In this document: positions 174 through 23,828 of the stretch, piece after piece | Layout of the letters: each line of letters opens with the position of its first letter | Position numbering within the stretch: the first letter of the stretch is position 1 | IMG/VR virus record: IMGVR_UViG_3300031521_000329 | Span: 1-25,649 of that record | Direction: 5' to 3' (one strand) | Source: a virus | DNA: 25,649 nt | Made by a program: the position numbers and the translations under genes | The notes under the pieces: generated by a model | The model's database searches: none | What the model saw: only the letters and a program-made list of their open reading frames with translations | What the model was told of the DNA's origin: nothing

Positions 174-632
174 ATGCTCAATTGGTTTGAAGTGAAAATT
201 AAGTACGAGAAAACTGCTGAAGAGGGTAAAATCGTAAAAGTATCTGAAAGTTATTTGGTGGATGCGCTGTCTTTTACAGAAGCGGAAGCACGTATTAATA
301 CCGAAATGAAACCATTTATTAGTGGTGAGTTTGTAGTTTCCGCAATTCGTAGGGCAAGGATTAATGAACTCTTTTCAAATGAAAATGGAGATAAGTGGTA
401 TCGTGCAAAATTGTACTTTATTTCCTTAGATGAAGAAAAAGGAATTGAAAAACGTACTGCTACTACAATGATGGTACAGGCTAATGATACTAAAGAGGCC
501 AATGAAGGAATTGTGGCAGGAATGAAAGCATCCATGGCAGACTATGAGATTGCATCAGTTACTGAAACTCAAATTATCGATGTATTTCCATTTGTTGCTC
601 CAAAAGATACTGAAGAAACTAAAAAGGATTAA
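174..632 (+). CDS. DUF4494-like phage protein
   Basis: This 152-residue protein has no signal peptide or membrane segment. It opens with MLNWFEVKIKYEK and contains SYLVDALSFTEAEARI, the hallmark arrangement I associate with DUF4494, a Bacteroidota family often found in phages and mobile elements and without known function. The fold looks like two alpha/beta repeats: W-(F/Y)-(E/R)-(V/A)-K occurs near residue 4 and again as KWYRAKLYF near residues 74-82, suggesting an internal duplication. The ATG at 174 is preceded by an A-rich leader typical of Bacteroidota. It ends two bases before the first DGR target gene starts, so both are probably cotranscribed. Family assignment is from memory of the motif; the function is unknown. 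Confidence 0.6.
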   Translation: MLNWFEVKIKYEKTAEEGKIVKVSESYLVDALSFTEAEARINTEMKPFISGEFVVSAIRRARINELFSNENGDKWYRAKLYFISLDEEKGIEKRTATTMMVQANDTKEANEGIVAGMKASMADYEIASVTETQIIDVFPFVAPKDTEETKKD

Positions 633-634
633 TT

Positions 635-1153
635 ATGTCACTAAAAATGAATAAAAAAACATACATGGATCTTATTGATCAGGATTTAGATTTATTAAAT
701 AAGAACTGTTCTGATACACCCGAAAGAGATCATATTAAACTGATTCTTTGTAAATCAATTGAATTCTATTATCCCCCTATAAAAAAGGATGGTAAAATTA
801 CGGATCGTATAAAAACATACGAAGATGCGTGCGAAGAACTTGATGAAACTCCTTTAGACGAAAAGGTACTTACAGACCTTGGATTTACAACCGACGAAAT
901 CAATTACCGGAAAATCAAAACCATTACCAAGGCACTTAACGAAGGTTGGAAAGCTGACTGGAACGATAGTAATCAATACAAGTACTATCCATGGTTTAAA
1001 ATGTCTTCCGGGGGCTTCGTTTTCTGCGATATGTATTACGATCGCTCGTATGCGAATGCGGGTTACGCCTCTCGCCTTTGCTTTAAAAGTTCGGAACTGG
1101 CCAAGTATGCCGGGGAACAATTCTTACAATTATATTCTGATTTTATTAAATAA
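635..1153 (+). CDS. DGR target protein 1 (contains VR1)
   Basis: This 172-residue protein is the first variable protein of the retroelement. Residues 1-95 are helical and charged. From about residue 100 it shares a block with target 2: ITKALNEGWKADWNDSNQ, then YYPWF, then MSSGGFVF. VR1 encodes residues 123-150, where the residues specified by template AAY codons have become C, Y, R, Y, N and Y. A constant tail (RLCFKSSELAKYAGEQF) follows, so the variable segment is close to, but not at, the C-terminus. DGR targets generally use a C-type-lectin-like scaffold to display such residues, and the G-F-V-F and RLCF blocks fit that, but I infer the fold. There is no signal peptide. Its partner is unknown; it could be a virion adhesin or an intracellular binding protein. 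Confidence 0.8.
   Translation: MSLKMNKKTYMDLIDQDLDLLNKNCSDTPERDHIKLILCKSIEFYYPPIKKDGKITDRIKTYEDACEELDETPLDEKVLTDLGFTTDEINYRKIKTITKALNEGWKADWNDSNQYKYYPWFKMSSGGFVFCDMYYDRSYANAGYASRLCFKSSELAKYAGEQFLQLYSDFIK
1002..1082 (+). repeat. DGR variable repeat VR1
   Basis: This 81-bp stretch aligns without gaps to the template repeat at 1593-1673. I count 12 differences, all at positions where the template has A (changes to G, T or C). Left of it the identity with the template stops, while identity with the paralogue continues, so the left edge is set by the TGTCTTCC block. The last 17 bases (CGCCTCTCGCCTTTGCT) are identical in VR1 and VR2 and differ from the template at three A positions; this is the likely initiation-of-mutagenic-homing (IMH) end. 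Confidence 0.92.
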
Positions 1154-1184
1154 CCGCCGTAAGGCACAAACAATTTTACACACA

Positions 1185-1562
1185 ATGGAAAAACAAGTAT
1201 TGACAATGGAAAGTATCAAAACTGTAGAAGATGCTTTAAATGCAGCTGCAATTCCAGCAACTCCTGAATTCAACGAAGTACCTGAAGAAATGAAGGATTA
1301 TTTTAAAGCGGTATATGAAGCCGTTGCAATTACTAAGGCTTTAGTTCAAGGTTGGAAAGCCGACTGGAACGATAGTAATCAACGCAAATGGTATCCTTGG
1401 TTCCGAATGTCTTCCGGGGGCTTCGTTTTCGGCGCTATGTATTGCGATTACTCGAATGCGGATGCGGGTCACGCCTCTCGCCTTTGCTTCCCTACTGAAG
1501 AGATGGCTGAGTATGCAGGAAGACAGTTTACGGAGGTATACAGTCGAATGATTCTGAAGTAA
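1185..1562 (+). CDS. DGR target protein 2 (contains VR2)
   Basis: A 125-residue paralogue of target 1. I place the start at the ATG at 1185, 31 bases after the end of target 1; the frame is open further upstream, but that part is an out-of-frame reading of target 1. The sequence runs through a helical N-terminus (VEDALNAAAIPATPEF), the shared block ITKALVQGWKADWNDSNQ, YPWFRMSSGGFVF, the variable segment (residues 75-102) and a constant tail (RLCFPTEEMAEYAGRQF). Variable residues include G, A, Y, C, Y, D and H. The homology spans nearly the whole C-terminal half at both protein and DNA level, so the two targets arose by gene duplication. It lacks the first 40 or so residues of target 1. Function is unknown beyond being a substrate for DGR diversification. 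Confidence 0.8.
   Translation: MEKQVLTMESIKTVEDALNAAAIPATPEFNEVPEEMKDYFKAVYEAVAITKALVQGWKADWNDSNQRKWYPWFRMSSGGFVFGAMYCDYSNADAGHASRLCFPTEEMAEYAGRQFTEVYSRMILK
1408..1488 (+). repeat. DGR variable repeat VR2
   Basis: This 81-bp gapless match to the template repeat has 13 differences, every one at a template adenine. Relative to VR1 it differs at 8 positions, all template adenines too. With VR1 it shares seven identical changes from the template, three of them inside the presumed IMH end. It lies in frame in target protein 2. Confidence 0.92.
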
Positions 1563-1592
1563 ACAAAAATGGGCTGTTTGTCTTTGTGAGGT

Positions 1593-1673
1593 TGTCTTCC
1601 AGGGGCTTCGTTTTCAACGATATGAATTACGATAACTCGAATGCGAATGCAGGTAACACCTCTCACCTATGCT
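1593..1673 (+). repeat. DGR template repeat TR
   Basis: This 81-bp noncoding copy lies between target 2 and the reverse transcriptase. Read in the register of the targets it contains six AAY codons (starting 1616, 1625, 1634, 1640, 1646, 1655), the codon type that DGR templates use because mutating both A positions reaches many amino acids without making stops. It has 21 adenines; 15 differ in at least one variable repeat, and no other base differs. In that register it runs into a TAA right after the repeat, so it is not a coding copy. It would be transcribed and copied by the reverse transcriptase with errors at A. Confidence 0.93.
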
Positions 1674-1784
1674 AAAAAGATACAAGGACAAAGGCCTTGC
1701 CACTGGGCAAAAAATAACAACTTTCAATGTGTACTGGTAGCCCCGCTTTTGCGGGGCGAACGTTCACGAACGAAAAGCAAAGAA
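1674..1784 (+). other. TR-RT spacer with GC-rich hairpins
   Basis: This noncoding stretch lies between the template repeat and the reverse transcriptase start. It holds a perfect hairpin CCCCGC-TTTT-GCGGGG at 1741-1756 and directly after it a second short dyad (CGTTC-AC-GAACG, about 1761-1772). In the Bordetella DGR, RNA downstream of the template repeat is needed for priming and for binding the reverse transcriptase complex, so this is the place to expect such an element. The first hairpin has no T tract after it, so it does not look like an intrinsic terminator. Confidence 0.5.
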
Positions 1785-2768
1785 ATGAAAAGATACGGAA
1801 ACTTATACGAACAGGTTTGCAGCCCTGAAAACTTAGTACTGGCATACCAGAAAGCGAGAAAAGGGAAAGCTACCACTTATGGAGTGAGGCTATTTGACAA
1901 GCATTTGGAAAAGAATATGAATAAACTGCATGATGAATTGGTTGCAGAAACTTACCGGACCTCTGAATACAGCGTATTTACTATTTATGATCCGAAAGAA
2001 CGTGAAATTTACAGGCTTCCATTTTGCGACAGGGTAGTGCACCATGCGATTATGAACATCATGGAACCGATATGGACAAGTATTTTCATTCAACACACCT
2101 ACAGTTGTATCAAAGGACGTGGGATACATGCCGTTTTAATGGCGATTAAACGGGATTTAAAGGATGTTTCAAACACAAAGTACTGTCTTAAAATGGATGT
2201 CAGAAAATTTTATCCGAACATTGATCATGAAATATTAAAGTCAATTCTCAGAAAGAAGATAAAAGATAGCCGATTGCTCAACTTGCTTGACGGTATCATT
2301 GACTCAGCTCCCGGAGTTCCTATTGGAAATTACTTATCTCAATTTTTCGCAAACCTGTATTTAGCGTATTTTGACCATTGGATGAAAGAAACGAAGCATT
2401 TTAAGTATTACTACCGATATGCCGATGACATTGTAATATTATACGATGATAAGACTTATTTACATGATTTGCTGTATGAAATAACAGCTTATCTGAAAAA
2501 TGAACTTAACCTGCAATTAAAAGGAAATTACCAGGTATTTCCGGTCAATTCACGAGGTATTGACTTCGTTGGTTACAAATTCTATCATACGCATATATTG
2601 ATGCGTAAAACGATTAAAAAAAGGCTTTGCCGAAAGGCCGCAAAGCTGAATAAAAAAGACATTGATGTTAAAAGTTACAAAATGCAGATAGCCCCATGGA
2701 TTGGTTGGGCATCACATTGCAACTCGAAGCATTTACTTAAAAAAGTACTGAATGAAAAATTTTTCTGA
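1785..2768 (+). CDS. DGR reverse transcriptase
   Basis: This 327-residue protein copies the template RNA into mutagenized cDNA that replaces the variable repeats. The ATG at 1785 gives MKRYGNLYEQVCS, the usual N-terminus of this group; the open frame extends upstream through the template repeat but that part is not protein. Visible motifs are R-L-P-F-C-D (78-82), the finger motif KMDVRKFYPNID with catalytic Asp138, GVPIGNYLSQ at 177-186 (the DGR signature; group II intron enzymes usually have QG...SP here), the catalytic YADD at 212-215, and GIDFVGYKF at 258-266 before the thumb. The size is normal for stand-alone DGR enzymes; no maturase or endonuclease domain is attached. The next gene overlaps its end by 17 bases. 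Confidence 0.95.
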   Translation: MKRYGNLYEQVCSPENLVLAYQKARKGKATTYGVRLFDKHLEKNMNKLHDELVAETYRTSEYSVFTIYDPKEREIYRLPFCDRVVHHAIMNIMEPIWTSIFIQHTYSCIKGRGIHAVLMAIKRDLKDVSNTKYCLKMDVRKFYPNIDHEILKSILRKKIKDSRLLNLLDGIIDSAPGVPIGNYLSQFFANLYLAYFDHWMKETKHFKYYYRYADDIVILYDDKTYLHDLLYEITAYLKNELNLQLKGNYQVFPVNSRGIDFVGYKFYHTHILMRKTIKKRLCRKAAKLNKKDIDVKSYKMQIAPWIGWASHCNSKHLLKKVLNEKFF

Positions 2769-3066
2769 TTTATGCATAAAGCCACTTGATGATAAAAATA
2801 TATTTAATGTTCCGGTGGTGTCAATAGAAGATGTTGCTAATGTAGAAATTGAGGTTTTAGACTTTGAAGCAAACGTAAAAACAAGACATGGTGAGGGTCG
2901 ATACATTCTAAAAGTGAAATTTGAAGGAATTGAACGAAAGTTTTTCACCAATGCAGCTCCCATCAAACAAGCACTCGAACAAATTAATAAAAACGATTTA
3001 CCTTTTAAGACAACAATAAAAACTCAAAAATTTGGGAGCAATAAAAAGACATTTTACTTTACATAA
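2752..3066 (+). CDS. Small protein overlapping the RT, candidate DGR accessory factor
   Basis: A 104-residue protein whose ATG lies inside the end of the reverse transcriptase gene (17-base overlap in another frame), so the two are probably translationally coupled. It looks mainly beta: VEIEVLDFEANVKT, a charged turn RHGEGRY, ILKVKFEGIERKFFTN, a short helix AAPIKQALEQIN, then LPFKTTIKTQKFG and KKTFYFT. Alternating basic and aromatic residues would suit a nucleic-acid-binding beta barrel, but that is inference. It is not a helical Avd-type protein. No Avd gene is visible elsewhere in the cassette, so this gene occupies the accessory position. I recall similar small proteins beside Bacteroidales DGR enzymes, but cannot check that here. 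Confidence 0.6.
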   Translation: MKNFSDLCIKPLDDKNIFNVPVVSIEDVANVEIEVLDFEANVKTRHGEGRYILKVKFEGIERKFFTNAAPIKQALEQINKNDLPFKTTIKTQKFGSNKKTFYFT

Positions 3067-5693: not shown

Positions 5694-6203
5694 TTACGGA
5701 TTAATTGTAATAATCTTTATTGTCGGTTTAGCTGCCATAATTGTTGGAATTTTTACTGCTGATGTATCTTTAATATAAGCCATATATTCCTCAACACTGT
5801 CCAGGTACTTGGAGTGATTATGATTGATGACCGATAGGGTGCGTGTCAGACTGCTGGATCCGTTTACGGTTATATTTTGAAGTGATGCTATCACCTTATC
5901 GGGTAAGTCCAGGTAATCAAGTGCGGTGGATTGTCCTGGATTGTATTTTGCGGTTCCTTCATACCAATCGGTTACAATGTGCAACTTAATAATAAGTGAA
6001 GCCTCCTGAACTTTATTACCAATAGTTTTCCACTGAATAGGCATAAATTCAACAAATACTGCAGGACGTGCAAACGGCGTATCCTGTTCAAGGAAATCAA
6101 CATTCTGATTCCACAAGTCGAAATGTTCAAAAATAGATTTGCCTTCATTGTTTTTTATTTCTGATAAAGCATTTTGCAAGTCGAGATAAAGTTGTTTTCT
6201 CAT
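5694..6203 (-). CDS. Tail terminator / neck protein (gp37-like)
   Basis: A 169-residue protein, last in the - strand head operon. It starts MRKQLYLDLQNALSE and continues with DTPFARPAVFVEF, a long beta segment EASLIIKLHIVTDWY and a Gln-Asn-I-T segment, the alpha/beta layout of tail-terminator or head-tail joining proteins of Myoviridae-type phages. Position supports this: in Mu-like phages the gene after the gpG-family protein encodes a small joining protein (gp37/DUF1834-like). It overlaps the gpG gene by four bases (ATGA). I see no catalytic motif. Confidence 0.6.
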   Translation of the reverse strand: MRKQLYLDLQNALSEIKNNEGKSIFEHFDLWNQNVDFLEQDTPFARPAVFVEFMPIQWKTIGNKVQEASLIIKLHIVTDWYEGTAKYNPGQSTALDYLDLPDKVIASLQNITVNGSSSLTRTLSVINHNHSKYLDSVEEYMAYIKDTSAVKIPTIMAAKPTIKIITINP

Positions 6204-6709
6204 TTGTTCATTAAATTATTTAGTTTACGTTCTAGTTCCTCAACGATCAGTTTATTTAATGTAGGACTATTTCCCATAAACTGGCGTTTTGGCATAGTAA
6301 ATCCGGAACCACGTCCGGCCTTTAATCCTTCGTTATGTACTGCTGCATATATTTTATCACTTTTGGCAAATGCCGAAGGTGATGTCCAAACTACAGCTTG
6401 ACCTTGTCCGGTCCGGCTTCGATCCATTTCAATGGAGCGTCCCAGGTCACCTGTTTCACCGGTCAGAATTTTACGGGATGTTGCTGCACCTTTCGCATAA
6501 CTTTTTACTGTTTTACCATTCCGATCCCAGGAACCCATCCGGCGTTGTACGTTCTGCCAGGGTATACGCTCCCAACTTTCAGTCTGAAAGTTTTTTTTGA
6601 AATAACTTACAGCTATTTTAGCTGCAATTGTAGGAGCGTATTTATCATAGAACTCACCATATTGCTTGTATAAGGTCTGTAAGTGTTGTTCAAATTCTTG
6701 TGGAGTCAT
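6200..6709 (-). CDS. Phage virion morphogenesis protein, gpG family
   Basis: This 169-residue protein resembles the Mu gpG / P2 gpS tail-completion family. Visible features are the helical N-terminus, WERIPWQNVQRRM (about residues 46-58), ILTGETGDLGRSIE with the conserved L-T-G-x-L-x-x-S-I pattern, and IYAAVHNEGLKAGRG followed by MPKRQFMG, the signature of this family (Y-A-x-x-H-x-G ... P-x-R-x-F-x-G). These proteins help attach the completed tail to the head. The gene follows MuF after a 134-base noncoding gap and overlaps the next gene by four bases. Confidence 0.85.
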   Translation of the reverse strand: MTPQEFEQHLQTLYKQYGEFYDKYAPTIAAKIAVSYFKKNFQTESWERIPWQNVQRRMGSWDRNGKTVKSYAKGAATSRKILTGETGDLGRSIEMDRSRTGQGQAVVWTSPSAFAKSDKIYAAVHNEGLKAGRGSGFTMPKRQFMGNSPTLNKLIVEELERKLNNLMNK

Positions 6710-6757
6710 ACTAATTACACGAATTAAGACGAATTAACGCTACTAGAGAACAATTTA

Positions 6758-6845
6758 AAGAAAAGCATAGTATATTTGCATCGGATTAGCATTTGGATAG
6801 AGCATTACCCTGTAGAGGTTTTGAGGTCATCTGGGTGCTTTTCTT
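6758..6845. repeat. 10-bp inverted repeat enclosing a possible structured RNA
   Basis: AAGAAAAGCA at 6758-6767 is complementary to TGCTTTTCTT at 6836-6845, bracketing the gap between MuF and gpG. Inside, on the + strand, is a TATATTTG box (6771-6778) that fits the Bacteroidota -7 pattern, then a stretch with tRNA-like pieces: TAGCATTTGGATAGAGCA resembles a D arm and ACC-CTGTAGA-GGT has the layout of an anticodon arm. There is no matching acceptor stem or clear T arm. On the - strand the repeat could instead form a stem in the mRNA after the MuF stop. Confidence 0.4.
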
Positions 6846-8010
6846 ATTTTATGGCATTGGTCAATGCATATAAATTAAACTTGCCTGTTATCAATTCCCT
6901 TACATTCAAATAAACTGTTTGTCCTGACAAGTCAAAAGAATAGTAATGAAATGCCTTTACCATAGGATTTGACTTGCTGTCTTTTGCACTCAACTCATAA
7001 GTAGCATTTTTGGTTATCTTATCAAGTTCAGGGATCAATGAGTTCTTGAAATTTGGATTTTCTGCAAAATCATGTGCGAAATGATTTATTCCACGTTTAT
7101 TAAATCCAATTTCAATAGTTTTCTCCACCTCATTTTCTACAATGGTTTGTTGAACCATTTTATCTAATAAGTTCTCAAAACCCAAGCTAACTGAACGATC
7201 ACGCACATCACGCATAATATCGTCGGTTATTTCCTCATTCATTTTATCACTTACAGAACTTATATAAGGATGTTCATCCGTGATCAGTTCACCTATTTCA
7301 CCTGGATTGCCTTCGAGTCCCGGAGAAGCCGGTACGCTATCAATATCTCCATTATCGGTGACATCCTTATCCGTTTCTTCCCAATCGCATTTACAATTCC
7401 ATAAACTTCCAGGTGAGTTCTCATCCCAAAACGGATCATCCTGTGGCCATACGTGAAAATAAAAGGCTGCATGTTCCTCTCGGATATGAGCCGAACGGCT
7501 TGGCAACCACATGATATTTGGATATAAGTCTTTATTTTCCTTGAATCCTTCCCATTGGTGTGCTGATCTGGCTCGTGCTGTAATGGTATTGTATTCAGTT
7601 GCCTGAAAGCGATTAAAGGTATTTATAACTGATTTGGCGTTATCCTCAAATTTAGGGTCATCCGTTTTTAATGACTTCAATTGTTCGGTTGCCTGGTATG
7701 ATTTGAAGTTGGCAAACCGTTCGACATTGAGTCGTGATTGCAATGCCAGGTCAAAACCTGAATCACCATACCCGGGTTTCCCCATTACACCATCAACAGC
7801 TTTATTGAAGTTTGATAAATAGTTATCCCGTAAATGACTGTTTATACGCTCGCTGTTACCTTCTTTTATTTGTGAAATGACGGTATCGGTTAACTCCTGT
7901 TTTGTCAAATCCCAGATAGGGAATGTAGCAATAGCTGAAATAAACTCGTTGAAGTTATTGTTGAAATAGGTTTTGTTTAAGACCCCGACCGGAGAAGCCG
8001 GGGCTAAACG
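6844..8010 (-). CDS. MuF head protein with C-terminal nuclease-like domain (no standard start; see frameshift)
   Basis: This is a Mu gpF / SPP1 gp7-type minor head protein. Counting from the TTG at 7908, residues 1-190 carry the MuF domain, with WLPSRSAHIREEHAAFYFHV and SLWNCKCDWEETD (metal-site-like C-x-C). Residues about 255-354 form a second domain (EIGFNKRGINHFAHDF, LIPELDKITKNATYEL, FHYYSFDLSGQTVYLNV, FNLYAL) that resembles the phage Barnase/EndoU/ColicinE5-type (PBECR) nuclease domains often fused to MuF. The frame is open upstream to 8073 and conserved-looking sequence (RLAPASPVGVLNKTYF) continues before 7908, but it contains no ATG or GTG; TTG at 7908 is the only common start. Expression by -1 frameshifting from the portal gene explains this best. 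Confidence 0.8.
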   Translation of the reverse strand, partial: RLAPASPVGVLNKTYFNNNFNEFISAIATFPIWDLTKQELTDTVISQIKEGNSERINSHLRDNYLSNFNKAVDGVMGKPGYGDSGFDLALQSRLNVERFANFKSYQATEQLKSLKTDDPKFEDNAKSVINTFNRFQATEYNTITARARSAHQWEGFKENKDLYPNIMWLPSRSAHIREEHAAFYFHVWPQDDPFWDENSPGSLWNCKCDWEETDKDVTDNGDIDSVPASPGLEGNPGEIGELITDEHPYISSVSDKMNEEITDDIMRDVRDRSVSLGFENLLDKMVQQTIVENEVEKTIEIGFNKRGINHFAHDFAENPNFKNSLIPELDKITKNATYELSAKDSKSNPMVKAFHYYSFDLSGQTVYLNVRELITGKFNLYALTNAIK

Positions 8011-8016
8011 AAAAAA
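7983..8016 (-). other. Candidate -1 ribosomal frameshift signal, portal to MuF
   Basis: On the - strand the portal frame ends AAT TTT TTC GTT TAG. The heptamer T TTT TTC (8016-8010) is a canonical -1 slippery sequence in the correct register. Six nucleotides downstream a hairpin begins, CCCCG (8003-7999) pairing with CGGGG (7987-7983), loop of 11. A -1 shift joins the portal to the MuF frame without a stop and would give a fusion of about 826 residues. A one-base sequencing error in the six-T run is the main alternative. Confidence 0.6.
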
Positions 8017-9323
8017 TTCTTTATAGCATGAAGGATGTTTTGAGGTGGTGTTTTGCCATCGTTTACGGTCTGATTAAATGCCGTTGCAACTGCCTTTAAC
8101 GAGTTCTGTTTCATCTCCTCTTTTAATTTGTCATAGTCCTTTGGTTTTGGGATGTTGAATTCTTCATAAATGGTATCATCATCCACCGGAACTTTGGCAC
8201 TGATTCCGGCATATACTTCCCATTTAGTTTTGAGCTTATCCCAATCGGCTTCATCATCCATGAACAGAATGGCACCACCGGTTACATCAATTCCAAAAGT
8301 TTTAAGTATAGCACGGAACTTGGAGTTCAGAATGTCGAGAACATATTTCTCATCATTCATGTGCTTTTGTTTTTCAGCGTCCTCGTGAACGGTTCCGAGG
8401 GATTTTGCGCCCTTATCTCCTTGTTCGGTTGTTAGTGTATTACCAAGTATTATCTTTGAAATTTCAGCGTTACACGCAGCCAGCAGATCTTTGTAAATTG
8501 AATTGCTTCCGGAGTTTCCTCCTGTGTCGTGAATTTTAAGCTCAGCACCTTTAGGACGAATCATATAATTTGCACCTCCCCATTTTTCCATTGCATCCTC
8601 AAGCTTGATGCGGGTTGCCTCATCATAATCCTCATACGAAGCTTCACGGAACGGCATACCAAACATCTCGGCAAATTGACTCCAGTCACCAAAATCACCA
8701 CGCTTGTAAATTACATATTGAGCTGCTTTTACAAGCAATCCTTTATCTTCAGCTTCACCTGCCCAAACCATGTACTTTTTTAATGGATCCTCCTGGTATA
8801 AAAAATCAGGAGTCGGCATGTTTTGATCACGGGAGATGCACTTGAAGTTTCGCTCAGGATGAACGTGTTTTCTTGGTATTAAATCATTATCAATGATCCA
8901 ACGTTCTTCCATGTCATCCCAATAGATATTATTGACCTGAATAAGCGTATAACCCCACAGAATTGAGTCCAATAAATGTTTTATAACAAAACGCATATCA
9001 GGACAATTAAGAAGTTTATTAATATCTTCATCCTGATTTTTAGTTTTATCTATGAAAACAAGTGGCTTATTTAATATCCAGTCAACCCGTTTACCCCATG
9101 TGGATTCTATTTGTCCGTCCAGACTAACATCTTCAAATAGGTCGTAGAGTATCAAGCGAGATGGATTGATAATGTTTTCAAAACTACGTATGCCGGTACG
9201 CCATTTTTCAATATCCTGTGTGCTACGATAAGGTGCACGGATGTTGATTTGATTTACTACTATTTTAGTATCTTTATTCCCTGGGGTACGTGTTACCGTT
9301 CCTGATTTAGCAGTCTTTTCCAT
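8004..9323 (-). CDS. Portal protein (Mu gp29-like, DUF935)
   Basis: This 439-residue protein matches the Mu gp29 / DUF935 portal family. Typical features are YDLFEDVSLDGQIESTWGKR (the conserved D-x-x-L-x-S-x-x-x-x-R block), LDSILWGYTLIQVNNIYWDD, the FAEMFGMPFREASYEDYDE region and LLAACNAEISKIILGNTLTT. The portal forms the dodecameric DNA channel at the head vertex. I chose the ATG at 9323; an in-frame TTG at 9335 overlaps the gp36-like gene. The stop at 8004 falls directly after a slippery T TTT TTC, and the MuF frame continues with FFRLAPASPVG, which looks like a natural continuation. Confidence 0.88.
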   Translation of the reverse strand: MEKTAKSGTVTRTPGNKDTKIVVNQINIRAPYRSTQDIEKWRTGIRSFENIINPSRLILYDLFEDVSLDGQIESTWGKRVDWILNKPLVFIDKTKNQDEDINKLLNCPDMRFVIKHLLDSILWGYTLIQVNNIYWDDMEERWIIDNDLIPRKHVHPERNFKCISRDQNMPTPDFLYQEDPLKKYMVWAGEAEDKGLLVKAAQYVIYKRGDFGDWSQFAEMFGMPFREASYEDYDEATRIKLEDAMEKWGGANYMIRPKGAELKIHDTGGNSGSNSIYKDLLAACNAEISKIILGNTLTTEQGDKGAKSLGTVHEDAEKQKHMNDEKYVLDILNSKFRAILKTFGIDVTGGAILFMDDEADWDKLKTKWEVYAGISAKVPVDDDTIYEEFNIPKPKDYDKLKEEMKQNSLKAVATAFNQTVNDGKTPPQNILHAIKNFFV

Positions 9324-9325
9324 AA

Positions 9326-9745
9326 TTAATTCCAATTGTTTCGACGGCGTGGGTTTCCGCCTGATTTGATGTACGAACTTCCACCACCTATTGCTGACTC
9401 TAATCGGGTTAGTCCAGGAATAGATGCTTTTTCTCCCTGAAGCTTGATAAGTGCATTTACCGTATCCTTGTAAATAGTTTGCCTTATTTCGGGCATATTA
9501 GCCGGATTGCTGACTTTGTAGCAATTGTAAATAGCAATTTCACGAACCAGGTTAACCACACGTATACTTCGTGCGTTTCCCGATTTTGAAAACTCCACGT
9601 CCATGTTATAGCGTGCACACAAGTAGCTTCGAACTTCCTCAATGGCTTCGTCAATGGCCGTAGTTACATTGTCCCCTGTACGGGTAAGCACTGTCAGCAC
9701 TTCAGGATAAATACCCATTTTCAAATCGGTGTCGGTGAAATACAT
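9326..9745 (-). CDS. gp36-like head-tail connector (DUF1320)
   Basis: A 139-residue protein of the Mu gp36 / DUF1320 type. It begins MYFTDTDLKMGIYPEVLTVLTR and contains AIDEAIEEVRSYLCARYNM and LVREIAIYNCYKV, the helical pattern of this connector family. It ends in a glycine- and asparagine-rich tail (AIGGGSSYIKSGGNPRRR) typical of a disordered terminus. It presumably attaches below the portal to form the neck. It lies three bases upstream of the portal ATG and is part of the same - strand operon. Confidence 0.8.
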   Translation of the reverse strand: MYFTDTDLKMGIYPEVLTVLTRTGDNVTTAIDEAIEEVRSYLCARYNMDVEFSKSGNARSIRVVNLVREIAIYNCYKVSNPANMPEIRQTIYKDTVNALIKLQGEKASIPGLTRLESAIGGGSSYIKSGGNPRRRNNWN

Positions 9746-9747
9746 AA

Positions 9748-9999
9748 CTATTTTCGGTTTTTGTGGTTGGTTGTATAAATACAGGCCTTACGCAGTTCAT
9801 CATCGTGATTCAGCTTCTTTGACAGAATGCCGGCATCAATTAATTTATTGATGTGTTCCCGGTCATAGACCCTGATTTTTTTATAAACCTGAATAACAAA
9901 CATTTCTTTTTTAGCCAGTTCGCTCATTTTATTGGCATGGTTGACTGCGTTCTTTACCCGTGTGTAACGGATAGTTCTTTTGATGAAAGTTAGTAGCAT
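9748..9999 (-). CDS. Small basic hypothetical protein
   Basis: An 83-residue, strongly basic, helical protein (FIKRTIRYTRVKNAVNHANKM, ELAKKEMFVIQVYKKIRVYD, INKLIDAGILSKKLNHDDEL). It lies between terminase large subunit and the gp36-like gene, with two bases to the latter. The second half could be a winged or helical DNA-binding unit; no family is recognised. Position suggests a role in packaging or head assembly. Confidence 0.65.
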   Translation of the reverse strand: MLLTFIKRTIRYTRVKNAVNHANKMSELAKKEMFVIQVYKKIRVYDREHINKLIDAGILSKKLNHDDELRKACIYTTNHKNRK

Positions 10000-10022
10000 G
10001 TTGTGTTGTTTTTGTGTGTTGT

Positions 10023-11549
10023 TTATACTCTTTTTTTATTAATTGGCCGGCGGTGCATGGTAATAGCATCTCCTGACATTTGCATGCGTTTAATATCCAG
10101 TATGAATTTTCCACCCTCAATGCAGTCTGGTCCGTCGGCGGGTGATTTCATTTGTGGATTGATTAAAAGAAATTGTTCCTCCAGTCGGAGCATATCCGGA
10201 TTGTCCTTTTCATCTAAATTGAAAATAAGTTGTCCGTTCCGGTTTATCGGTTCCAGGTTCCCCTCAATGCGGACAAATTTATCCGGCTTTTTACGTGTAT
10301 CCGGGATAAGTCCTATTTGACCACGTTCCTTCCCCATCTGGGAAAAAAGAGGAATAAATACCTGTTCATAGAATGGATCCTGAAGCGTGTTATTTTCAAC
10401 ATAGTTGTAAACCTGTGCTTTTCCGTTGACATAGTCACGAATAGCATAAAACCACTCTACAAATTTTGCATTTGGAACCTGATCCAGGAAGCCGGTATAG
10501 ATGTAATATTTTCCTTCCTTGTAACCCATCAGGAAAATACATTTATAACTTCCACCCGCTTTTTGCTTATCCTTATTGCTTGGTGACGGGTCGGAATACG
10601 CAACCAGGTATTTCATAGTTCCGATAGGTGGACATTTACCCCATCGTATTTCTTTGAATGTTTCACCCTCTGAAAGTGGATTGTTGAAATACTCTTGTTG
10701 TGCTGCTTTGGTACTGATCTTAGAAAGCACCCGGTCGATCATCTCCTCCGTATTCTTTTCTGGCCAGGAAGATTTACCATCCTTATTTCGAATGTTGACA
10801 ATATCGTGATGATCCGCTTTTTGAGCGGCCAGGGTTACACAACATGTTTTAGCAATGATATTACCCAGAATAAGAACTAACAGCGGTTTACTGATAGATC
10901 GGGTAGGCATTAATGCTTTCTCGAACCAGTCAAAGTTTTTCTTTACCGTGTCAGGATTGCGTACGCTTTCATCAGTGTCAAAATCGGATATCAACAAGAC
11001 ATCCGGACGTATTTCCTCATTCTTTTTACCACGTGGACTTTGGCCTGCTCCCAATGCTATAAATTTAGCACCACCGGTGGTAGCAAAATCACCTTCCTCC
11101 CAATCACCGTAATTTTTCTGCTTCCCGTAGTACCGGATGATGCGTTCGTTGAATTCAAGGTTCATCATAAACGGCATCAGCAAATCGGTTGCAGCATCCT
11201 CGCTTGATGATACAAATACAATGAACTTCTTTTTACCGGTTAATGCCAGGAATAAAACAGCAAACATGGTTACGGTGTCCTTTCCAAGTTCCCGGCTCCA
11301 ACTGATCACCTCATACCATTCAGGATTATTTACAACCCGATTGATAAACTTAGTATGAAATAAGGCAAATTCGGCAGTAGCATATTTTGGGAACATAAAT
11401 TTAGCCCACTCTACCGGACGCGCTTCGAGCCATTGTCGGTGCTTATTAATTTCCGCTTCCGACGTATTAGGATCGAGTCCGCTATCCGATAGATAAGACT
11501 TTTTATACGATTGCCACTGATCGAGGCTATGCCTTTCTCCTGGTTTCAT
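10023..11549 (-). CDS. Terminase large subunit (Mu gp28-like)
   Basis: A 508-residue packaging motor. The ATPase half has a Walker-A-like SRELGKDT (85-92), FIVFVSSSEDAATDLL (strand and helix after it) and a Walker-B-like VLLISDFDTDE (about 184-194). The C-terminal nuclease half contains YLVAYSDPSPSNKD (first metal-binding Asp), a second cluster around YNYVENNTLQDPFYEQVF and a later acidic region near DCIEGGKFILD. It translocates phage DNA into proheads and cuts it by a headful mechanism in Mu-like phages. It overlaps the small subunit by four bases and is first in line after it. Confidence 0.92.
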   Translation of the reverse strand: MKPGERHSLDQWQSYKKSYLSDSGLDPNTSEAEINKHRQWLEARPVEWAKFMFPKYATAEFALFHTKFINRVVNNPEWYEVISWSRELGKDTVTMFAVLFLALTGKKKFIVFVSSSEDAATDLLMPFMMNLEFNERIIRYYGKQKNYGDWEEGDFATTGGAKFIALGAGQSPRGKKNEEIRPDVLLISDFDTDESVRNPDTVKKNFDWFEKALMPTRSISKPLLVLILGNIIAKTCCVTLAAQKADHHDIVNIRNKDGKSSWPEKNTEEMIDRVLSKISTKAAQQEYFNNPLSEGETFKEIRWGKCPPIGTMKYLVAYSDPSPSNKDKQKAGGSYKCIFLMGYKEGKYYIYTGFLDQVPNAKFVEWFYAIRDYVNGKAQVYNYVENNTLQDPFYEQVFIPLFSQMGKERGQIGLIPDTRKKPDKFVRIEGNLEPINRNGQLIFNLDEKDNPDMLRLEEQFLLINPQMKSPADGPDCIEGGKFILDIKRMQMSGDAITMHRRPINKKRV

Positions 11550-12004
11550 TTAAGTTGATCTTTAATGTATGCATCAAACAGGGCTAATATCTCTTTTCCC
11601 TTTTGTGGATCAATAGGACGGATCCAGTCGAGTACTTTGCGAGATACATTGATCACATCCGTAAGTCCGCATTCTGTTTCGAGGGATGCCAGGTCGGCAA
11701 CCAGGCGTCGACGGATATTACTTTCGTCCTTATCGGGGAACCGGTATTTCGGTTCACGACTCCCAATCAGGTTATCAAGCTCGGTGAGTTGATTGATAGT
11801 TGAGCGCAGACGTTCCTCCCTGGTTACTGATATGGTTGATCGTAACTGATCCCATTTGCCATCCCTTACCCATTTGGAAATAGTTACTTCCGATACACCC
11901 ACTTTAGAAGCAATTTCCTTTTGTGTAAGTTTCTCCTTTACAAAAAGAAGTTTGGCATATTCTTTCAATTGTAACCGCTTGTCTTTTGTTGTCGACTTAT
12001 CCAT
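11546..12004 (-). CDS. Terminase small subunit
   Basis: A 152-residue protein with an N-terminal helix-turn-helix (LTQKEIASKVGVSEVTISKW, about residues 25-44, with WVRDGKWDQLR after it), a pattern typical of phage terminase small subunits and of DUF1804-like proteins in Mu-type phages. The rest is helical (LRSTINQLTELDNLIGS, RRRLVADLASLETECG, VLDWIRPIDPQKGKEIL) and probably oligomerises. It recognises phage DNA ends and hands them to the large subunit, which it overlaps by four bases. It is the first gene of the - strand head operon, transcribed away from the control region at 12005-12151. Confidence 0.85.
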   Translation of the reverse strand: MDKSTTKDKRLQLKEYAKLLFVKEKLTQKEIASKVGVSEVTISKWVRDGKWDQLRSTISVTREERLRSTINQLTELDNLIGSREPKYRFPDKDESNIRRRLVADLASLETECGLTDVINVSRKVLDWIRPIDPQKGKEILALFDAYIKDQLK

Positions 12005-12151: not shown

Positions 12152-13294
12152 ATGCCTAAAAAAGTAAACCAGATCCTGAATCAACTCAATGAATCCTGCT
12201 GCGAAGTTTACCTCTATGGTATCATAGGGAGATTTATGGATATTGACACTAATTTACTAATTCCGGCTTTAGAGGATTGTCGTAAATCGGGTTGTACAAA
12301 TTTCACATTTTATGTGAATTCCGATGGTGGTGAGGTTGTTCAATGTCAAGCGTTGTGGAACTACCTGAACAGATCTGATATTAATGTGACATGGGTAGTA
12401 GATGGCGTAGCAGCCAGTTGTGGTTACGATATGATGACTAACCCAAAACATACAGTTTGTATGGCAAAATACAGCAAACTAATGGTTCATAAAGTATCCG
12501 GATTTGCAAGTGGAGGTTCTAAAGACATTCGAAATTATGCAGATACAATGGATCTTTTTGAAGCTGATATTGTAGACATGATTGCCAACCGGTGTGGGAT
12601 AACGAAGGATGAGGTTATTGCTACGTACATGGATGGTAGCGATCACTGGTTGACACCACAACAGGCAATTGATGCCAAACTATGCGATAAAATGATAGAG
12701 GGATGTGACAGCATGGAGGAACCTCCATCCAGCATGTGCAATCCAAACGATATTTACAATTATTTCCAAAATCAAATAATCAATTTACAAACCAACAAAA
12801 CGAGTATGGATCACAAAGAAATTGCACCAATTTTAAACTTGGATGTGAATTCGGATGAGAAAGCCGTAAAGACAGGTATTCAGAATGTGGTAGCGAAAGC
12901 CACCCGTTTGGAGACTGAAAACGGAACTCTGAAAACCGAAAAAGAAGCCCTGCAAAATCAGGTTAATACAATGAATCAGGCAAAGGTAAAAAACCTGATT
13001 GATGGAGCTGTAACCGCCAAACGTATTGGTGAGGATATGCGCGACACGTACACCGAAATGGCGAACGAAAATTATGAACGTGCTGAAAAAGTTATCAATT
13101 CATTACCTGTTGTTGGTCGGATTGCAAACGAATTAGGTAGCGGGAATAACGGATCCGTTCCGGGAGCAGAAAAAGACTGGACTTGGGATGATTATCACAA
13201 GAAAGGTAAATTGGAAAACCTGAAGGCTACCAATATGGAGCATTTCAAAAATGTATTTAAAGCGAAGTTTAACCGTGATTTTAAGGAGGCATAA
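12152..13294 (+). CDS. ClpP-type head maturation protease fused to scaffold
   Basis: This 380-residue protein has a ClpP/S14 domain at residues 1-185. The nucleophile is Ser89 in VDGVAASCGY, the base His113 in LMVHKVSG, and Asp164 in GSDHWLTPQQAID is the probable third residue. An N-D-x-G-G-type strand (FYVNSDGGEV) forms the oxyanion region. After a polar linker, residues 219-380 are scaffold-like, with a coiled coil (RLETENGTLKTEKEALQNQV) and helices to the end. This is the layout of Mu gpI and similar proteases, which digest the scaffold and themselves during prohead maturation. It is the first gene of the + strand late operon. Confidence 0.9.
   Translation: MPKKVNQILNQLNESCCEVYLYGIIGRFMDIDTNLLIPALEDCRKSGCTNFTFYVNSDGGEVVQCQALWNYLNRSDINVTWVVDGVAASCGYDMMTNPKHTVCMAKYSKLMVHKVSGFASGGSKDIRNYADTMDLFEADIVDMIANRCGITKDEVIATYMDGSDHWLTPQQAIDAKLCDKMIEGCDSMEEPPSSMCNPNDIYNYFQNQIINLQTNKTSMDHKEIAPILNLDVNSDEKAVKTGIQNVVAKATRLETENGTLKTEKEALQNQVNTMNQAKVKNLIDGAVTAKRIGEDMRDTYTEMANENYERAEKVINSLPVVGRIANELGSGNNGSVPGAEKDWTWDDYHKKGKLENLKATNMEHFKNVFKAKFNRDFKEA
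12806..13294 (+). CDS. Possible internal-start scaffold protein
   Basis: An in-frame ATG at 12806 (residue 219 of the protease) starts MDHKEIAPILNLDVNSDEKA, exactly at the boundary between protease linker and scaffold domain. The preceding ACCAACAAAACGAGT resembles the A-rich leaders of other genes here. In Mu the scaffold gpZ is made from a start inside gene I, so a nested 162-residue scaffold is plausible. Both products would share the same stop. Confidence 0.45.
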   Translation: MDHKEIAPILNLDVNSDEKAVKTGIQNVVAKATRLETENGTLKTEKEALQNQVNTMNQAKVKNLIDGAVTAKRIGEDMRDTYTEMANENYERAEKVINSLPVVGRIANELGSGNNGSVPGAEKDWTWDDYHKKGKLENLKATNMEHFKNVFKAKFNRDFKEA

Positions 13295-13297
13295 GCA

Positions 13298-13702
13298 ATG
13301 ACAGTCATTAATATGAATACCAATGCGAGCTATAACTTTAAAGCTCCCGCTATCATAAAAGATGCGGATTCAAAAGTAGAAGTTGTATTCCCAACTTCAG
13401 AAAAACAAACCGTTGCCCCGGCAGCTGTTATTGAAGTAGATGTGGAAAGAACCTCTACAGTGGTTGATCTTGGTGAGTTAGCTGAAGCTGCTACGCTAAA
13501 CCTGACTATTGGTGCAGATGTACCTGTAGGTGCTATTTTGGTAGTTAAAGCTAAAAGCGATGCAACTGCCCGGGACATAACCCTTGGAACAGGGTTAACG
13601 GGTCCTGCTATTACCGGAGTAATTTCTAAAACAAAATCAGTGTCGTTCATGTATGACGGTTTGTCGTTTATCGCGATGGCCGCTGCTGTTCAACTTGATT
13701 AA
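13298..13702 (+). CDS. Head decoration-like protein
   Basis: A 134-residue, beta-rich protein with many Ala, Val, Thr and Gly residues (SKVEVVFPTSEKQTV, LNLTIGADVPVGAILVV, ARDITLGTGLTGPAITG). It lies between the protease-scaffold and the major capsid gene, the usual place for a decoration or stabilisation protein in Mu-like and lambda-like head modules. The ATG at 13298 follows the protease stop by three bases. No motif allows a firm family call. Confidence 0.6.
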   Translation: MTVINMNTNASYNFKAPAIIKDADSKVEVVFPTSEKQTVAPAAVIEVDVERTSTVVDLGELAEAATLNLTIGADVPVGAILVVKAKSDATARDITLGTGLTGPAITGVISKTKSVSFMYDGLSFIAMAAAVQLD

Positions 13703-13731
13703 TTTATTCACGATTAATTATTAAAATCAAT

Positions 13732-14841
13732 ATGAAACGAACAAGATTTATTCTCAGTTTTTTAACGGCACTTTTGTTTGCCGTTGGTATCGGTTCCGCT
13801 TTCGGAGCTGTAGCGGGTGGTGGCGCGTTTATCGTGTCTGCAATTAATAAAGGTGTGCCTTCGGGTTCGATGCTTTCGGGTGTTACCCCTGAAATATGGG
13901 TAAACTATATTATTGAAAATCTTTTCAAGAACAACGAGTTCCTGTTGAATTCAGTCGACGAAAGCCAATATGTGATTGGTGGTAGTGTCGTTCATATTCC
14001 TCAGGCAGGTAGCCAAAGCGGGGTACAAAGAAATCGTAAAAATTTGCCGGCTACTATTACCCGCCGTAAGGATATCGATGTAACGTATGCACTGGATGAA
14101 TTTACAACCGATCCACGGTTTATCCCGGATATTGATAAAGCCGAATTAAGCTACGATAAAATGGATTCGTGTATGAGCGAAGATATGAGTTACCTGGAAC
14201 AATTTGTTGCTGAAGCAATGATGTATAACTGGCGTCCTCAATTCTTTATTAAAACAACCGGAGACTCAACAGCAGCACATATTGGAACAGGGAATCGTAA
14301 GAAATTAACCTTAACTGATTTTCAGACTGCCAAATCCGTATTTAATAAATGGAATATCCCTAAAGGTGACCGTTATGTAGTATTGGATACTGAAATGCAG
14401 GCACAATTATGCAGCGATTTGAAAGCAACTGCTAACCGTGATTTCTCAGCCGTTTACGATCCAATTAACGGTGAATTAAAGAAACTGGAAGGTTTCCAGA
14501 TCACTGAACGATCAACTGCTTTGAATGCACGTAATACAACATTAACAGCTGTTGCTAATTCAAAATATTTCAAATGGACTGCTAATGATTTGACTTACTA
14601 TCCTGAAGATTTCATGGATGTTGAATCAGGTGATGCAGCTGCTGATACTACCTCGTGTGCTTATGGTTTATTCTGGAGCAAAAACGCAGTAGCCCGTTCA
14701 ATGGGTATGACTAAGATGTTTGATGACAAAGGTAATCCTCAGTTTTACGGTGATATTTATTCGTTCTTGCAACGTGCCGGTGGACGTTCACGTCGTGCCG
14801 ATGGTAAGGGAGTTCTTGGAGTCATTCAGACTATTGTATAG
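13732..14841 (+). CDS. Major capsid protein with signal-peptide-like N-terminus
   Basis: This 369-residue protein is the best major capsid candidate by position (after protease and decoration protein) and by its sequence: TPEIWVNYIIENLFKNNEF, the E-loop-like stretch GSVVHIPQAGSQSGVQ and a long helix DMSYLEQFVAEAMMY are typical of HK97-fold capsid proteins in Bacteroidota Mu-like phages. The first 30 residues are unusual: a basic n-region (KRTR), a hydrophobic core FILSFLTALLFAVGIG and small residues SAFGAVAGGG, like a Sec signal peptide or membrane anchor. An in-frame ATG at 13870 (residue 47) would remove it. It is followed by a strong terminator. Confidence 0.85.
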   Translation: MKRTRFILSFLTALLFAVGIGSAFGAVAGGGAFIVSAINKGVPSGSMLSGVTPEIWVNYIIENLFKNNEFLLNSVDESQYVIGGSVVHIPQAGSQSGVQRNRKNLPATITRRKDIDVTYALDEFTTDPRFIPDIDKAELSYDKMDSCMSEDMSYLEQFVAEAMMYNWRPQFFIKTTGDSTAAHIGTGNRKKLTLTDFQTAKSVFNKWNIPKGDRYVVLDTEMQAQLCSDLKATANRDFSAVYDPINGELKKLEGFQITERSTALNARNTTLTAVANSKYFKWTANDLTYYPEDFMDVESGDAAADTTSCAYGLFWSKNAVARSMGMTKMFDDKGNPQFYGDIYSFLQRAGGRSRRADGKGVLGVIQTIV

Positions 14842-14882
14842 GTTTAGTTTTTTAATGTTTATTTTTCATGTGTGTGTTTTGA

Positions 14883-14917
14883 ATATCCGCTACCGGTAGC
14901 GGTAGCGGGTATTTTTT
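14883..14917 (+). terminator. Intrinsic terminator after major capsid gene
   Basis: A 12-bp stem (14883-14894 with 14901-14912, one G-T pair) around GGTAGC, followed by six T. The stem includes CCGCTACC/GGTAGCGG, and an alternative 16-base perfect palindrome is nested at 14887-14902. It probably attenuates transcription into the tail genes so that capsid mRNA is most abundant. Confidence 0.82.
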
Positions 14918-14929
14918 AAAATTGAAATT

Positions 14930-15127
14930 ATGGCTAAAACAATAAATAACGATCCAAAAACCGGTGATCCGAAAGAAGGACAGCAAATCGCTGATGAAAT
15001 AATGAAATCAGTCCAGGTAATTGAGATTTGGCGTCTGGATGATAACCGGTGGTACACCAATGAAAAGAAAGCGATTGAAAGAAACGAAACTGATGGAGAA
15101 ATTCAACATTTTACAAAAACAAAATAA
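14930..15127 (+). CDS. Small hypothetical protein before tail sheath
   Basis: A 65-residue charged protein (AKTINNDPKTGDPKEGQQ, then ADEIMKSVQVIEIWRLDDN). The second half, IEIWRLDDNRWYTNEKKA, looks like a small beta hairpin. It lies six bases before the sheath gene. Small genes at this position occur in Mu-like phages, but I cannot assign a role. Confidence 0.65.
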   Translation: MAKTINNDPKTGDPKEGQQIADEIMKSVQVIEIWRLDDNRWYTNEKKAIERNETDGEIQHFTKTK

Positions 15128-15133
15128 GAGACT

Positions 15134-16330
15134 ATGTTACCACGTGTAAAAATATATTTTGAAAACGGATCCATTGGATCAACTACTCCGTCAGATGATG
15201 GTGTAGTTGGATTAGTGGCTACCGGGGTAGCTGTAGCTGGAAAGTTTGTACTTGGTACAGCATATCTGATTACATCACTTTCCGGACTCACTGCTTTGGG
15301 TATTACGTCGGCTGATGCTGATGTCAATAAGACCATTTACAAAGCTGTAAAAGATTTCTATACCGAAGCTCCAGACGGTACTAAGTTGTGGTTGAAAGGA
15401 GTTTCTGATACGGTAACCCTGGCACAAATGATGGATGTAACCCTCACTAATGCAAAAACACTGATTGATTCGGCTAACGGAGCTATCAAGATCCTGTTTG
15501 CAGTGAAAAAAGATGCAACCGGTTATGTAACTACCATAACCGATGGATTGGATGCTGATGTTACGGCTGCTATTACCAAAGCCCAGGCGTTGGGAGAATA
15601 TGCTTCAGACAGCAAATATGCTCCACTTTTTGTCATTCTTCCCGGACGCCATTACAGTGGTGTAGCTGCTGACCTTTCCGATTTAGGAACCGGAACATTC
15701 AACCGGGTAGCTGTGATGATTGGTGATACCGTAGCCTCAAGTAATGATGCTGCTGTAGGCCTATTAGCTGGGCGTGTTGCCGGTATACCAGTACAGCGAA
15801 GCATTGCCCGGGTTAAATCGGGTGCAATTGGTGTTGCATCGCTCTACATTGGAGCAGTAACTGCTGAGAACGGATCTCCTGACGTTATCAATGATAACGG
15901 CTATATTACCTTCCGTACTTTCGTGGGTAAATCCGGTTATTACTTCACTGATGATAAATTGGCTACAGCTGTTACCGATGACTATGCATTGATTCCACGA
16001 CGCAGGACTATTGATAAGGCTTACCGGATCGGATATCAGACATTGATCAACGAGCTGGGGGATGAAATTCCGGTAACTGATGATGGAACTATTCCGGCAT
16101 CAACGGTAAAAAGTATTCAAAATGCTGTTGAAACAGCCATTGAAAACAACATGGCCGGTGAACTTGGATCTGATCCGGGTAACTCAACGGATACCGGTGT
16201 AATATGCTTTATTGACCATACGCAAAATGTGGTTAGTACGTCAAAACTGAACGTAAAACTTCGTGTAAAACCTTTTGGTTATCCGAAGTATATTGATTTG
16301 TATTTAGGATTTAAAACTGCAACCACTTAA
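15134..16330 (+). CDS. Contractile tail sheath protein (DUF2586-like)
   Basis: A 398-residue protein matching the DUF2586 sheath type of Mu-like phages. The N-terminus MLPRVKIYFENGSIG is followed by the conserved GVVGLVATGVAVAGKFVLG region; the middle has an Ala/Asp-rich domain with FVILPGRHYSG, RVAVMIGDT and GLLAGRVAGIPVQRSIARV; the end carries YITFRTFVGKSGYYFTDDK and PRRRTIDKAYRIGYQTLI, typical of sheath C-terminal domains that link neighbouring subunits. It polymerises around the tube and contracts at infection. Cotranscribed with the tube gene 12 bases downstream. Confidence 0.9.
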   Translation: MLPRVKIYFENGSIGSTTPSDDGVVGLVATGVAVAGKFVLGTAYLITSLSGLTALGITSADADVNKTIYKAVKDFYTEAPDGTKLWLKGVSDTVTLAQMMDVTLTNAKTLIDSANGAIKILFAVKKDATGYVTTITDGLDADVTAAITKAQALGEYASDSKYAPLFVILPGRHYSGVAADLSDLGTGTFNRVAVMIGDTVASSNDAAVGLLAGRVAGIPVQRSIARVKSGAIGVASLYIGAVTAENGSPDVINDNGYITFRTFVGKSGYYFTDDKLATAVTDDYALIPRRRTIDKAYRIGYQTLINELGDEIPVTDDGTIPASTVKSIQNAVETAIENNMAGELGSDPGNSTDTGVICFIDHTQNVVSTSKLNVKLRVKPFGYPKYIDLYLGFKTATT

Positions 16331-16342
16331 TACTATAAAATT

Positions 16343-16762
16343 ATGGCATTCGACAGTAGAGAATATGAATTTGCTGACCTGACATTTGTATTAGGTGGCA
16401 AGGATATAACCGGTTTCCGGGGTATTAAATATACCAAGAAACAAGAAAAGGAACTTGTTTATGGTAAAGGAAATGAACCGCTGAAGATTCAGAAAGGGAA
16501 TAAATCCTATGAAGGTGAACTATCTGTATTACAATCGGAACTTGAAACGCTTATTGCAAACAGTCCAAATAAGGACATATTGGATCTACAGCTTGATGCT
16601 GTATGTGCGTATGGAAACCCAAGTCATGGTGATGTATTGATCACTGATGTTTTGCAAGGGATTCAGTTCACAGAAGAAAGTAAAGAGTTTAAACAAGGTG
16701 ATAAATTTGGTGAAATCAAACTACCATTTATTTTCCTGAGGAAAAAGGCTCAATCTCTTTAA
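16343..16762 (+). CDS. Tail tube protein
   Basis: A 139-residue protein directly after the sheath gene, where Mu-like phages encode the tube. It begins AFDSREYEFADLTFVLGGKD followed by ITGFRGIKYTKKQEKELVYG, a beta-hairpin pattern typical of tube subunits, and has the small size expected. It builds hexameric rings inside the sheath. A terminator hairpin follows. Confidence 0.8.
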   Translation: MAFDSREYEFADLTFVLGGKDITGFRGIKYTKKQEKELVYGKGNEPLKIQKGNKSYEGELSVLQSELETLIANSPNKDILDLQLDAVCAYGNPSHGDVLITDVLQGIQFTEESKEFKQGDKFGEIKLPFIFLRKKAQSL

Positions 16763-16786
16763 TCAATTTAAATTTTAGACTATTAC

Positions 16787-16823
16787 AAAAGCAGTCGGTC
16801 CAAACTGACTGACTGCTTTTTTT
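16787..16823 (+). terminator. Intrinsic terminator after tail tube gene
   Basis: AAAAGCAGTC (16787-16796) pairs with GACTGCTTTT (16811-16820), followed by more T to 16823. It probably reduces read-through into the chaperone and tape-measure genes, matching the higher need for tube subunits. Confidence 0.8.
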
Positions 16824-16843
16824 AAAAACAAAAAACATACACA

Positions 16844-17592: not shown

Positions 17593-17597
17593 CTCCG

Positions 17598-19235: not shown

Positions 19236-19236
19236 T

Positions 19237-19860: not shown

Positions 19861-19874
19861 ATACCGTTTCAATC

Positions 19875-21662: not shown

Positions 21663-21664
21663 AT

Positions 21665-22359: not shown

Positions 22360-22360
22360 G

Positions 22361-23238: not shown

Positions 23239-23248
23239 CATTTAAATA

Positions 23249-23809: not shown

Positions 23810-23828
23810 CTTAAAACGAATAACACGA

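Follow-up and report, generated by a model that had tools for sequence, protein, structure and literature searches.

A two-target DGR of a probably Mu-like Bacteroidota phage, with a candidate helper protein instead of Avd

We describe here a diversity-generating retroelement (DGR) of a probably Mu-like phage of Bacteroidota in which a small protein encoded at the end of the reverse transcriptase (RT) gene, here called ACC, appears to take the place of Avd, and in which two neighboring genes, T1 and T2, would be the genes that are rewritten. The cassette lies within a 25,649-nucleotide stretch of viral DNA (IMG/VR virus record IMGVR_UViG_3300031521_000329, positions 1 to 25,649), which we refer to as the window, and we put the probability that this reading as a whole is right, and that the DGR is of a working type, at roughly 0.9. 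The DGR mechanism itself is known, and it is the dedication to apparently non-structural targets and the ACC helper that set this lineage apart. We propose that the template repeat (TR) would be transcribed together with the structured RT-17 spacer that follows it, that RT, aided by the overlapping ACC instead of Avd, would copy the TR RNA with errors at adenines, and that the resulting cDNA would replace either variable repeat 1 (VR1) in T1 or VR2 in T2, each independently of the other. As read from sequence, the case is built on adenine-specific variation, divergence confined to the VRs of otherwise identical relatives, a conserved layout, an in-frame RT-ACC fusion in hankyphage, and the lack of a tail VR in nine long relatives.

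Results

The features of the cassette and its upstream neighbor are as follows.

174..632, + strand: DUF4494 gene (PF14902, E = 7.7e-55), an early-block neighbor upstream of the cassette and not part of the DGR
635..1153, + strand: T1, first target, 172 aa (phrog_11581, E = 2.1e-31), contains VR1
1002..1082, + strand: VR1, 12 differences from TR, all on TR adenines
1060..1082, + strand: 3' end of VR1, IMH-like, with positions -13, -6, +1, and +5 (register given below) fixed or nearly fixed across relatives
1185..1562, + strand: T2, second target, 125 aa from the ATG at 1185 (phrog_11581, E = 2.6e-16), contains VR2
1408..1488, + strand: VR2, 13 differences from TR, all on TR adenines
1593..1673, + strand: TR, template repeat, whose 3' end (1651-1673) is the IMH*-like counterpart
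1693..1784, + strand: structured RNA, Rfam RT-17 (RF03020), 57.7 bits against a gathering threshold of 40.4, E = 8.6e-10
1785..2768, + strand: reverse transcriptase, 327 aa (PF00078, E = 4.3e-17; phrog_1423, E = 9.4e-132; 8ub7, E = 5.5e-56)
2752..3066, + strand: ACC, 104 aa, OB-fold-like, candidate RT partner, overlapping the 3' end of RT (phrog_19665, E = 2.3e-30)

Template and variable repeats

A first-pass annotation, made from the letters alone, had placed a complete DGR with two VRs at 635-2768, and on realignment its repeats are exact to the base. TR aligns without gaps to both VRs, all of the 12 + 13 differences (25/25) fall on TR adenines, and 15 of the 21 template adenines are changed in at least one VR. 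The accompanying chance estimate of ~10^-9 becomes stronger when recomputed (P = 6.7e-12, hypergeometric, 15/15 sites on A with 21 A in 81 bases), and the six in-register AAY codons of TR and the RT motifs YADD and GVPIGNYLSQ are present as described. The interval does hold the targets, TR, and RT, but it is slightly short in that the helper ORF at 2752-3066 belongs to the cassette too, and although all 25 differences are indeed on adenines, not all can be credited to hypermutation, since five sites that are changed in both VRs, and hence ten of the differences, are fixed between TR and VR. VR1 and VR2 carry the same base at 7 of the 15 variable sites, and at five of those seven (TR positions 9, 59, 66, 73, and 77) the TR/VR difference is fixed or nearly fixed in relatives, so that these five are not independent evidence of hypermutation. 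The sites at which VR1 differs from VR2 number eight, and all are on A (P = 6e-6). Relatives provided 96 distinct TR/VR pairs with 1475 mismatches in all, and 1432 of these mismatches are on TR adenines, which constitute 27% of TR bases; the pairs had been selected for A-rich mismatches, and the clean tests are therefore provided by pairs of near-identical contigs. No further TR/VR copy was found within the record, a virus fragment of 25.6 kb from IMG/VR.

Diversification among relatives

An RT search gave 80 viral and 34 genomic loci. Two of these, L008 and L009, are from different metagenomes and are identical over 9,061 nt apart from six bases, all of which are in VR2 and at TR adenines. 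L069 and L070 have nine differences from ~1.77 kb upstream of RT through the RT end, all in VR1 and all at TR adenines, in a comparison that excludes a cluster of differences at the very contig edge and the divergent downstream flank. The comparison of related loci that the first-pass annotation recommended thus finds near-identical contigs differing only at VR sites that match TR adenines, and VR diversification with a constant TR is seen in these relatives, between contigs rather than within one infection. L045 has the same TR, VR2, and 678 RT bases as the window, and its VR1 differs at 15 positions, 14 of them on TR adenines, in a VR1 alignment longer than that of the window and beside an upstream flank that has recombined too. 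Because some relatives are changed in VR1 only and others in VR2 only, each VR can evidently change without the other.

These observations bear on two other accounts of the repeats. In the first, a gene was duplicated, its copies drifted apart, and the fit of their differences to adenines is a coincidence. T1 and T2 are indeed paralogs (79% over 200 nt), but drift does not put 25 of 25 differences here, and 6 of 6 and 9 of 9 between near-identical contigs, on template adenines, and we regard this account as refuted by the contig pairs. In the second, the cassette is a fossil, and the rewriting that once diversified its VRs has ceased, in keeping with the VRs of L005, which are identical to those of the window, and with the existence of apparently dead derivatives (L012, L014, and L015). 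However, the RT, TR, RNA, and both targets of the window are intact, L045 has another VR1 beside an identical TR, VR2, and 678 RT bases, and close relatives differ in their VRs only, all of which makes a fossil very unlikely and favors a DGR of a working type. The dead derivatives have their own distinctive structure, with a hybrid target gene in L012 (3948-4355), and also in L014 and L015, that passes from a VR-type 5' part to a TR-type 3' end with a stop. Their second target is missing and a separate TR was not found in them, and these DGRs look to have been inactivated by recombination between VR and TR.

Two classes of template adenine

We placed 101 distinct TR/VR pairs in a register in which 0 is the first base of the Arg codon of SRLC, and the template adenines then fall into two classes. 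At adenines -48 to -8 all four bases occur in the VR, with pooled frequencies of 39% A, 32% G, 19% T, and 10% C over the 101 pairs, a pool that includes site -61, which is never A in the VR (32 G, 2 T). At the other class the VR is always G (-63, -60, -54, -13, and +1), G in 95/97 (-6), or always T (+5). Most of these fixed adenines are compatible with constraint on the protein or, for those at the 3' end, with a boundary of the IMH/IMH* type. TR has A at both +1 and +5, where the VR is invariably G and T respectively, and on these fixed differences the 3' end would be an IMH*/IMH-like element; we note that the IMH of BPP-1 also differs from TR in part (PMC3240598).

Site -13 (TR position 59, window position 1651) is peculiar in that the substitution is synonymous (GCA/GCG), that hypermutable adenines flank it on both sides in the window's lineage, and that 45/45 VRs, from 25 loci, have G there. 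The site has a CAG context, in which template adenines are G in the VR at 98% of 257 sites overall; for other DGRs the figure is 88% of 25 sites. BPP-1 bRT is known to make errors that depend on context, although the text gives no CAG figure (PMC12875486). Context as the sole cause of the fixed adenines is doubtful, since CAC sites do not behave deterministically and A is retained at a few CAG sites of other DGRs. A hairpin just downstream of the VR has been described for BPP-1 and many phage DGRs, and we do not treat it as defining. Next to the VRs described here, the best stems are the same as those in shuffled sequences when perfect stems only are counted.

Reverse transcriptase and spacer RNA

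The best solved relative of RT is 8ub7 ('Reverse transcriptase'), with the next best at 2e-18, and we take 8ub7 to be the BPP-1 DGR enzyme. The RT type and the adenine-specific VRs uphold the earlier call of a complete DGR with two VRs, and judged on these features the cassette is a genuine one; only the word 'complete' sits less easily with the finding that no Avd was found and that another small protein lies beside RT.

The TR-RT gap is structured and shows covariation. In the RNAalifold structure of the window and 23 relatives (n = 24), 97.7% of cells are paired, and 38 cells have changed on both sides, compared with a shuffle mean of 9 and a slid maximum of 10. Six T-type relatives and L088 also have a match to RT-17, which falls below threshold in several more distant relatives. 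In hankyphage, the spacer between TR and RT is occupied by a different Rfam RNA, RT-3, and we infer that the RT-17 and RT-3 RNAs may represent the 3' spacer of the template RNA.

The helper protein ACC

Scored from ORFs at the RT end, ACC occurs in 73 of the 74 T-type loci whose sequence extends far enough downstream (46/47 RT clusters). A separate search that started from the targets recovered 17 loci with RT, 17/17 of them with ACC, three being contigs seen before. The ACC model has a pLDDT of 87.5 and its order of strands and helices fits a beta-beta-beta-alpha-beta-beta OB barrel; structure matches are weak (best Z 5.9), with SSB, PriB, and RPA70N recurring among the VIA-align matches. A Pfam Dicer_dsRBD assignment was dropped, as E = 0.0016 is below the cut-off and only 4/47 members match.

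It could be argued that ACC is a protein of Mu phages in general, located next to RT but without a role in the DGR, given that OB-fold-like proteins are common in phage replication and that a small ORF separates ACC from RT in LoVEphage. However, ACC overlaps RT at a near-constant offset in most relatives, residues 327-434 of the hankyphage RT match ACC (42%, E = 1e-23) in an in-frame fusion located at the end point of the 327 aa window RT, and ACC is found inside the RT genes of two other phages, BT-TP2 and BKO1-TP3, so that a bystander role seems improbable.

Avd is a frequent but non-universal DGR accessory, and we do not treat it as defining. A bAvd model (PF22296) that scores 123 bits with the BPP-1 control finds no Avd in the window or in 19 T-type viral records, nor anywhere in the hankyphage genome, whose RT has the C-terminal ACC domain; the genome of L099 has a sub-threshold bAvd match elsewhere. 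A second Avd model, PF05635, has no match anywhere, and we do not count this as evidence. The earlier Avd-like assignment in hankyphage rested on size and isoelectric point (PMC6199706). The ORF following the hankyphage RT (L119:5324-5806) matches DUF4376. Taken together, the linkage of ACC to RT, the hankyphage fusion, and the lack of a bAvd match make ACC a candidate to partner RT instead of Avd, and it quite probably works with RT. A Prolixibacteraceae locus (L102) has a DGR with ACC and a longer VR, and no T-family target was detected in it, so ACC is not tied to one type of target.

Genome context and the target genes

In a near-complete relative (L047/L164) the gene order is S24-type repressor, transposase, transposition protein, ATPase, DUF3164, DUF4494, T1, T2, TR, RT, ACC, which places the cassette in the early block. 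The DUF4494 gene is the upstream neighbor in many relatives too, and the T1-T2-TR-RNA-RT-ACC layout is conserved. The lineage has 49 RT clusters at 95% identity among the fetched loci, with known hosts mainly in Bacteroidota, and cassettes of this kind are carried, for example, by Muricauda sp. ARW1Y1 and Galbibacter marinus (L097/L094). We consider the phage to be of Bacteroidota and probably Mu-like; the MuA/MuB-like genes are seen in L047/L164, and the window begins downstream of that region. Structural genes in the window are on both strands, with neck, portal, and terminase genes at 5694-12004 (- strand) and head protease, major head, and tail genes at 12152-25648 (+ strand). A tail-collar-like gene (25139-25648) is cut by the record end, and the VR check of the window's tail genes extends to that point.

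All 79 aligned targets match phrog_11581. An ungapped scan of 80 T-type loci with >1 kb upstream of RT shows two VRs in 58, one in 16, three in one, and none in five. Three tandem target genes, each with a VR, are seen in L034 (4459-5788) and L041 (3346-4752), and the middle target of L034 is composed of the 5' part of the last target and the 3' part of the first. T-family genes without RT in the fetched flanks occur at L142, L146, and L147, with several copies in L142 and L146. Neither T1 nor T2 has an obvious signal peptide by eye. The variable segment of the target model has low confidence (pLDDT about 53-55), and with that segment so modeled a fold search returned uncharacterized viral proteins and weak helical PDB matches only, and no C-type lectin. 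Sequence searches of the PDB with target and ACC profiles gave nothing convincing, NCBIfam gave scattered single-member matches to the targets only, viral contigs searched with a profile of the complete target alignment gave no conserved stretch, and plasmids gave no matches.

Nine long relatives of 36-52 kb, of which two were read over just 39.8 kb, have no tail gene with a VR, and their TR matches the adjacent targets only; the DGR thus seems to serve small early proteins only. Elsewhere, T homologs with a remote VR are present in the known gut phages LoVEphage, Versailles, and crAss cr56_1, with 19/19, 15/16, and 16/16 differences at A respectively. In all three the TR also matches a VR near RT, which is in an annotated tail protein in Versailles and cr56_1. 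The LoVEphage T gene is near methyltransferase and tRNA-ligase genes, and is probably a non-structural second target of the Quimbyviridae kind.

Phage DGRs are mostly understood as tail-fiber tropism switches, and T1 and T2 could conform to this as virion or receptor-binding proteins of an ordinary tropism-switching DGR. Structural proteins predominate among the targets of phage DGRs (PMC8008677, PMC10743442), and the variable segments of the Versailles T homolog and tail protein are 71% alike over 38 aa. However, the T genes are in the early block by the transposition genes and away from the tail genes, the nine long relatives have no tail VR, and the T homologs of Versailles and cr56_1 are far from tail genes, and we consider virion targets unlikely. 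T1 and T2 would rather be small non-structural proteins of the early gene cluster, as their position suggests. Masking of receptors through a specificity shared by tail and T proteins was also considered, and is unsupported in that the tail and T VRs carry different variants within the same genome in both LoVEphage and Versailles.

Discussion

What the two targets bind is a matter for more tentative suggestion. T1 and T2 may be cytoplasmic binding proteins that are made early in the lytic cycle and are diversified against variable molecules of host defense or rival phages rather than against surface receptors, a proposal that we think has a reasonable chance without being the favorite. More doubtful is the larger composite in which hypermutation serves only a pair of recognition proteins that act inside the cell and are expressed alongside the transposition genes, using an RT with an OB-fold partner in the place of Avd and a near-deterministic change of CAG to CGG at certain template adenines. 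If our overall reading is correct, a widespread lineage diversifies only small early proteins, and targeted hypermutation would be at work inside the cell, plausibly against defenses or rivals. The fusion of ACC to RT suggests that DGRs have a family of accessory proteins other than Avd, and the placement of RT-17 and RT-3 in the TR-RT gap hints at a function for both RNA families.

The BPP-1 DGR (bRT, Avd, Mtd) has the same RT family, a TR upstream of RT, adenine-specific VRs, and fixed 3' TR/VR differences. It departs from the window cassette in having Avd (the bAvd match of 123 bits) and a tail target, whereas in the window there is no Avd found, an OB-fold-like ACC, two small and apparently non-structural targets, and no VR-adjacent hairpin detected. 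Hankyphage (Bacteroides phage p00) is a Mu-like phage of Bacteroidota, as the phage of the window probably is, with an ACC domain, albeit one fused to RT, and an Rfam RT-n RNA (RT-3) between TR and RT. However, it has a single VR in a large ORF of the tail region (PMC6199706), its RT is 31% identical to that of the window, and its cassette is at the tail end of the genome and not in the early block.

The diversification of two genes by one DGR is shared with the tentaclins (PMC10743442) and the Bacuni phages (PMC8143477), although the targets there are adhesin-like or receptor-binding-like with C-type lectin folds. The Quimbyviridae DGR similarly has one target outside the structural genes, a non-structural gene in a defense-like island, against a background of structural targets (PMC8008677). 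The Quimbyviridae thus pair one structural with one non-structural target, whereas in the window both targets appear to be non-structural, and are paralogs situated beside RT.
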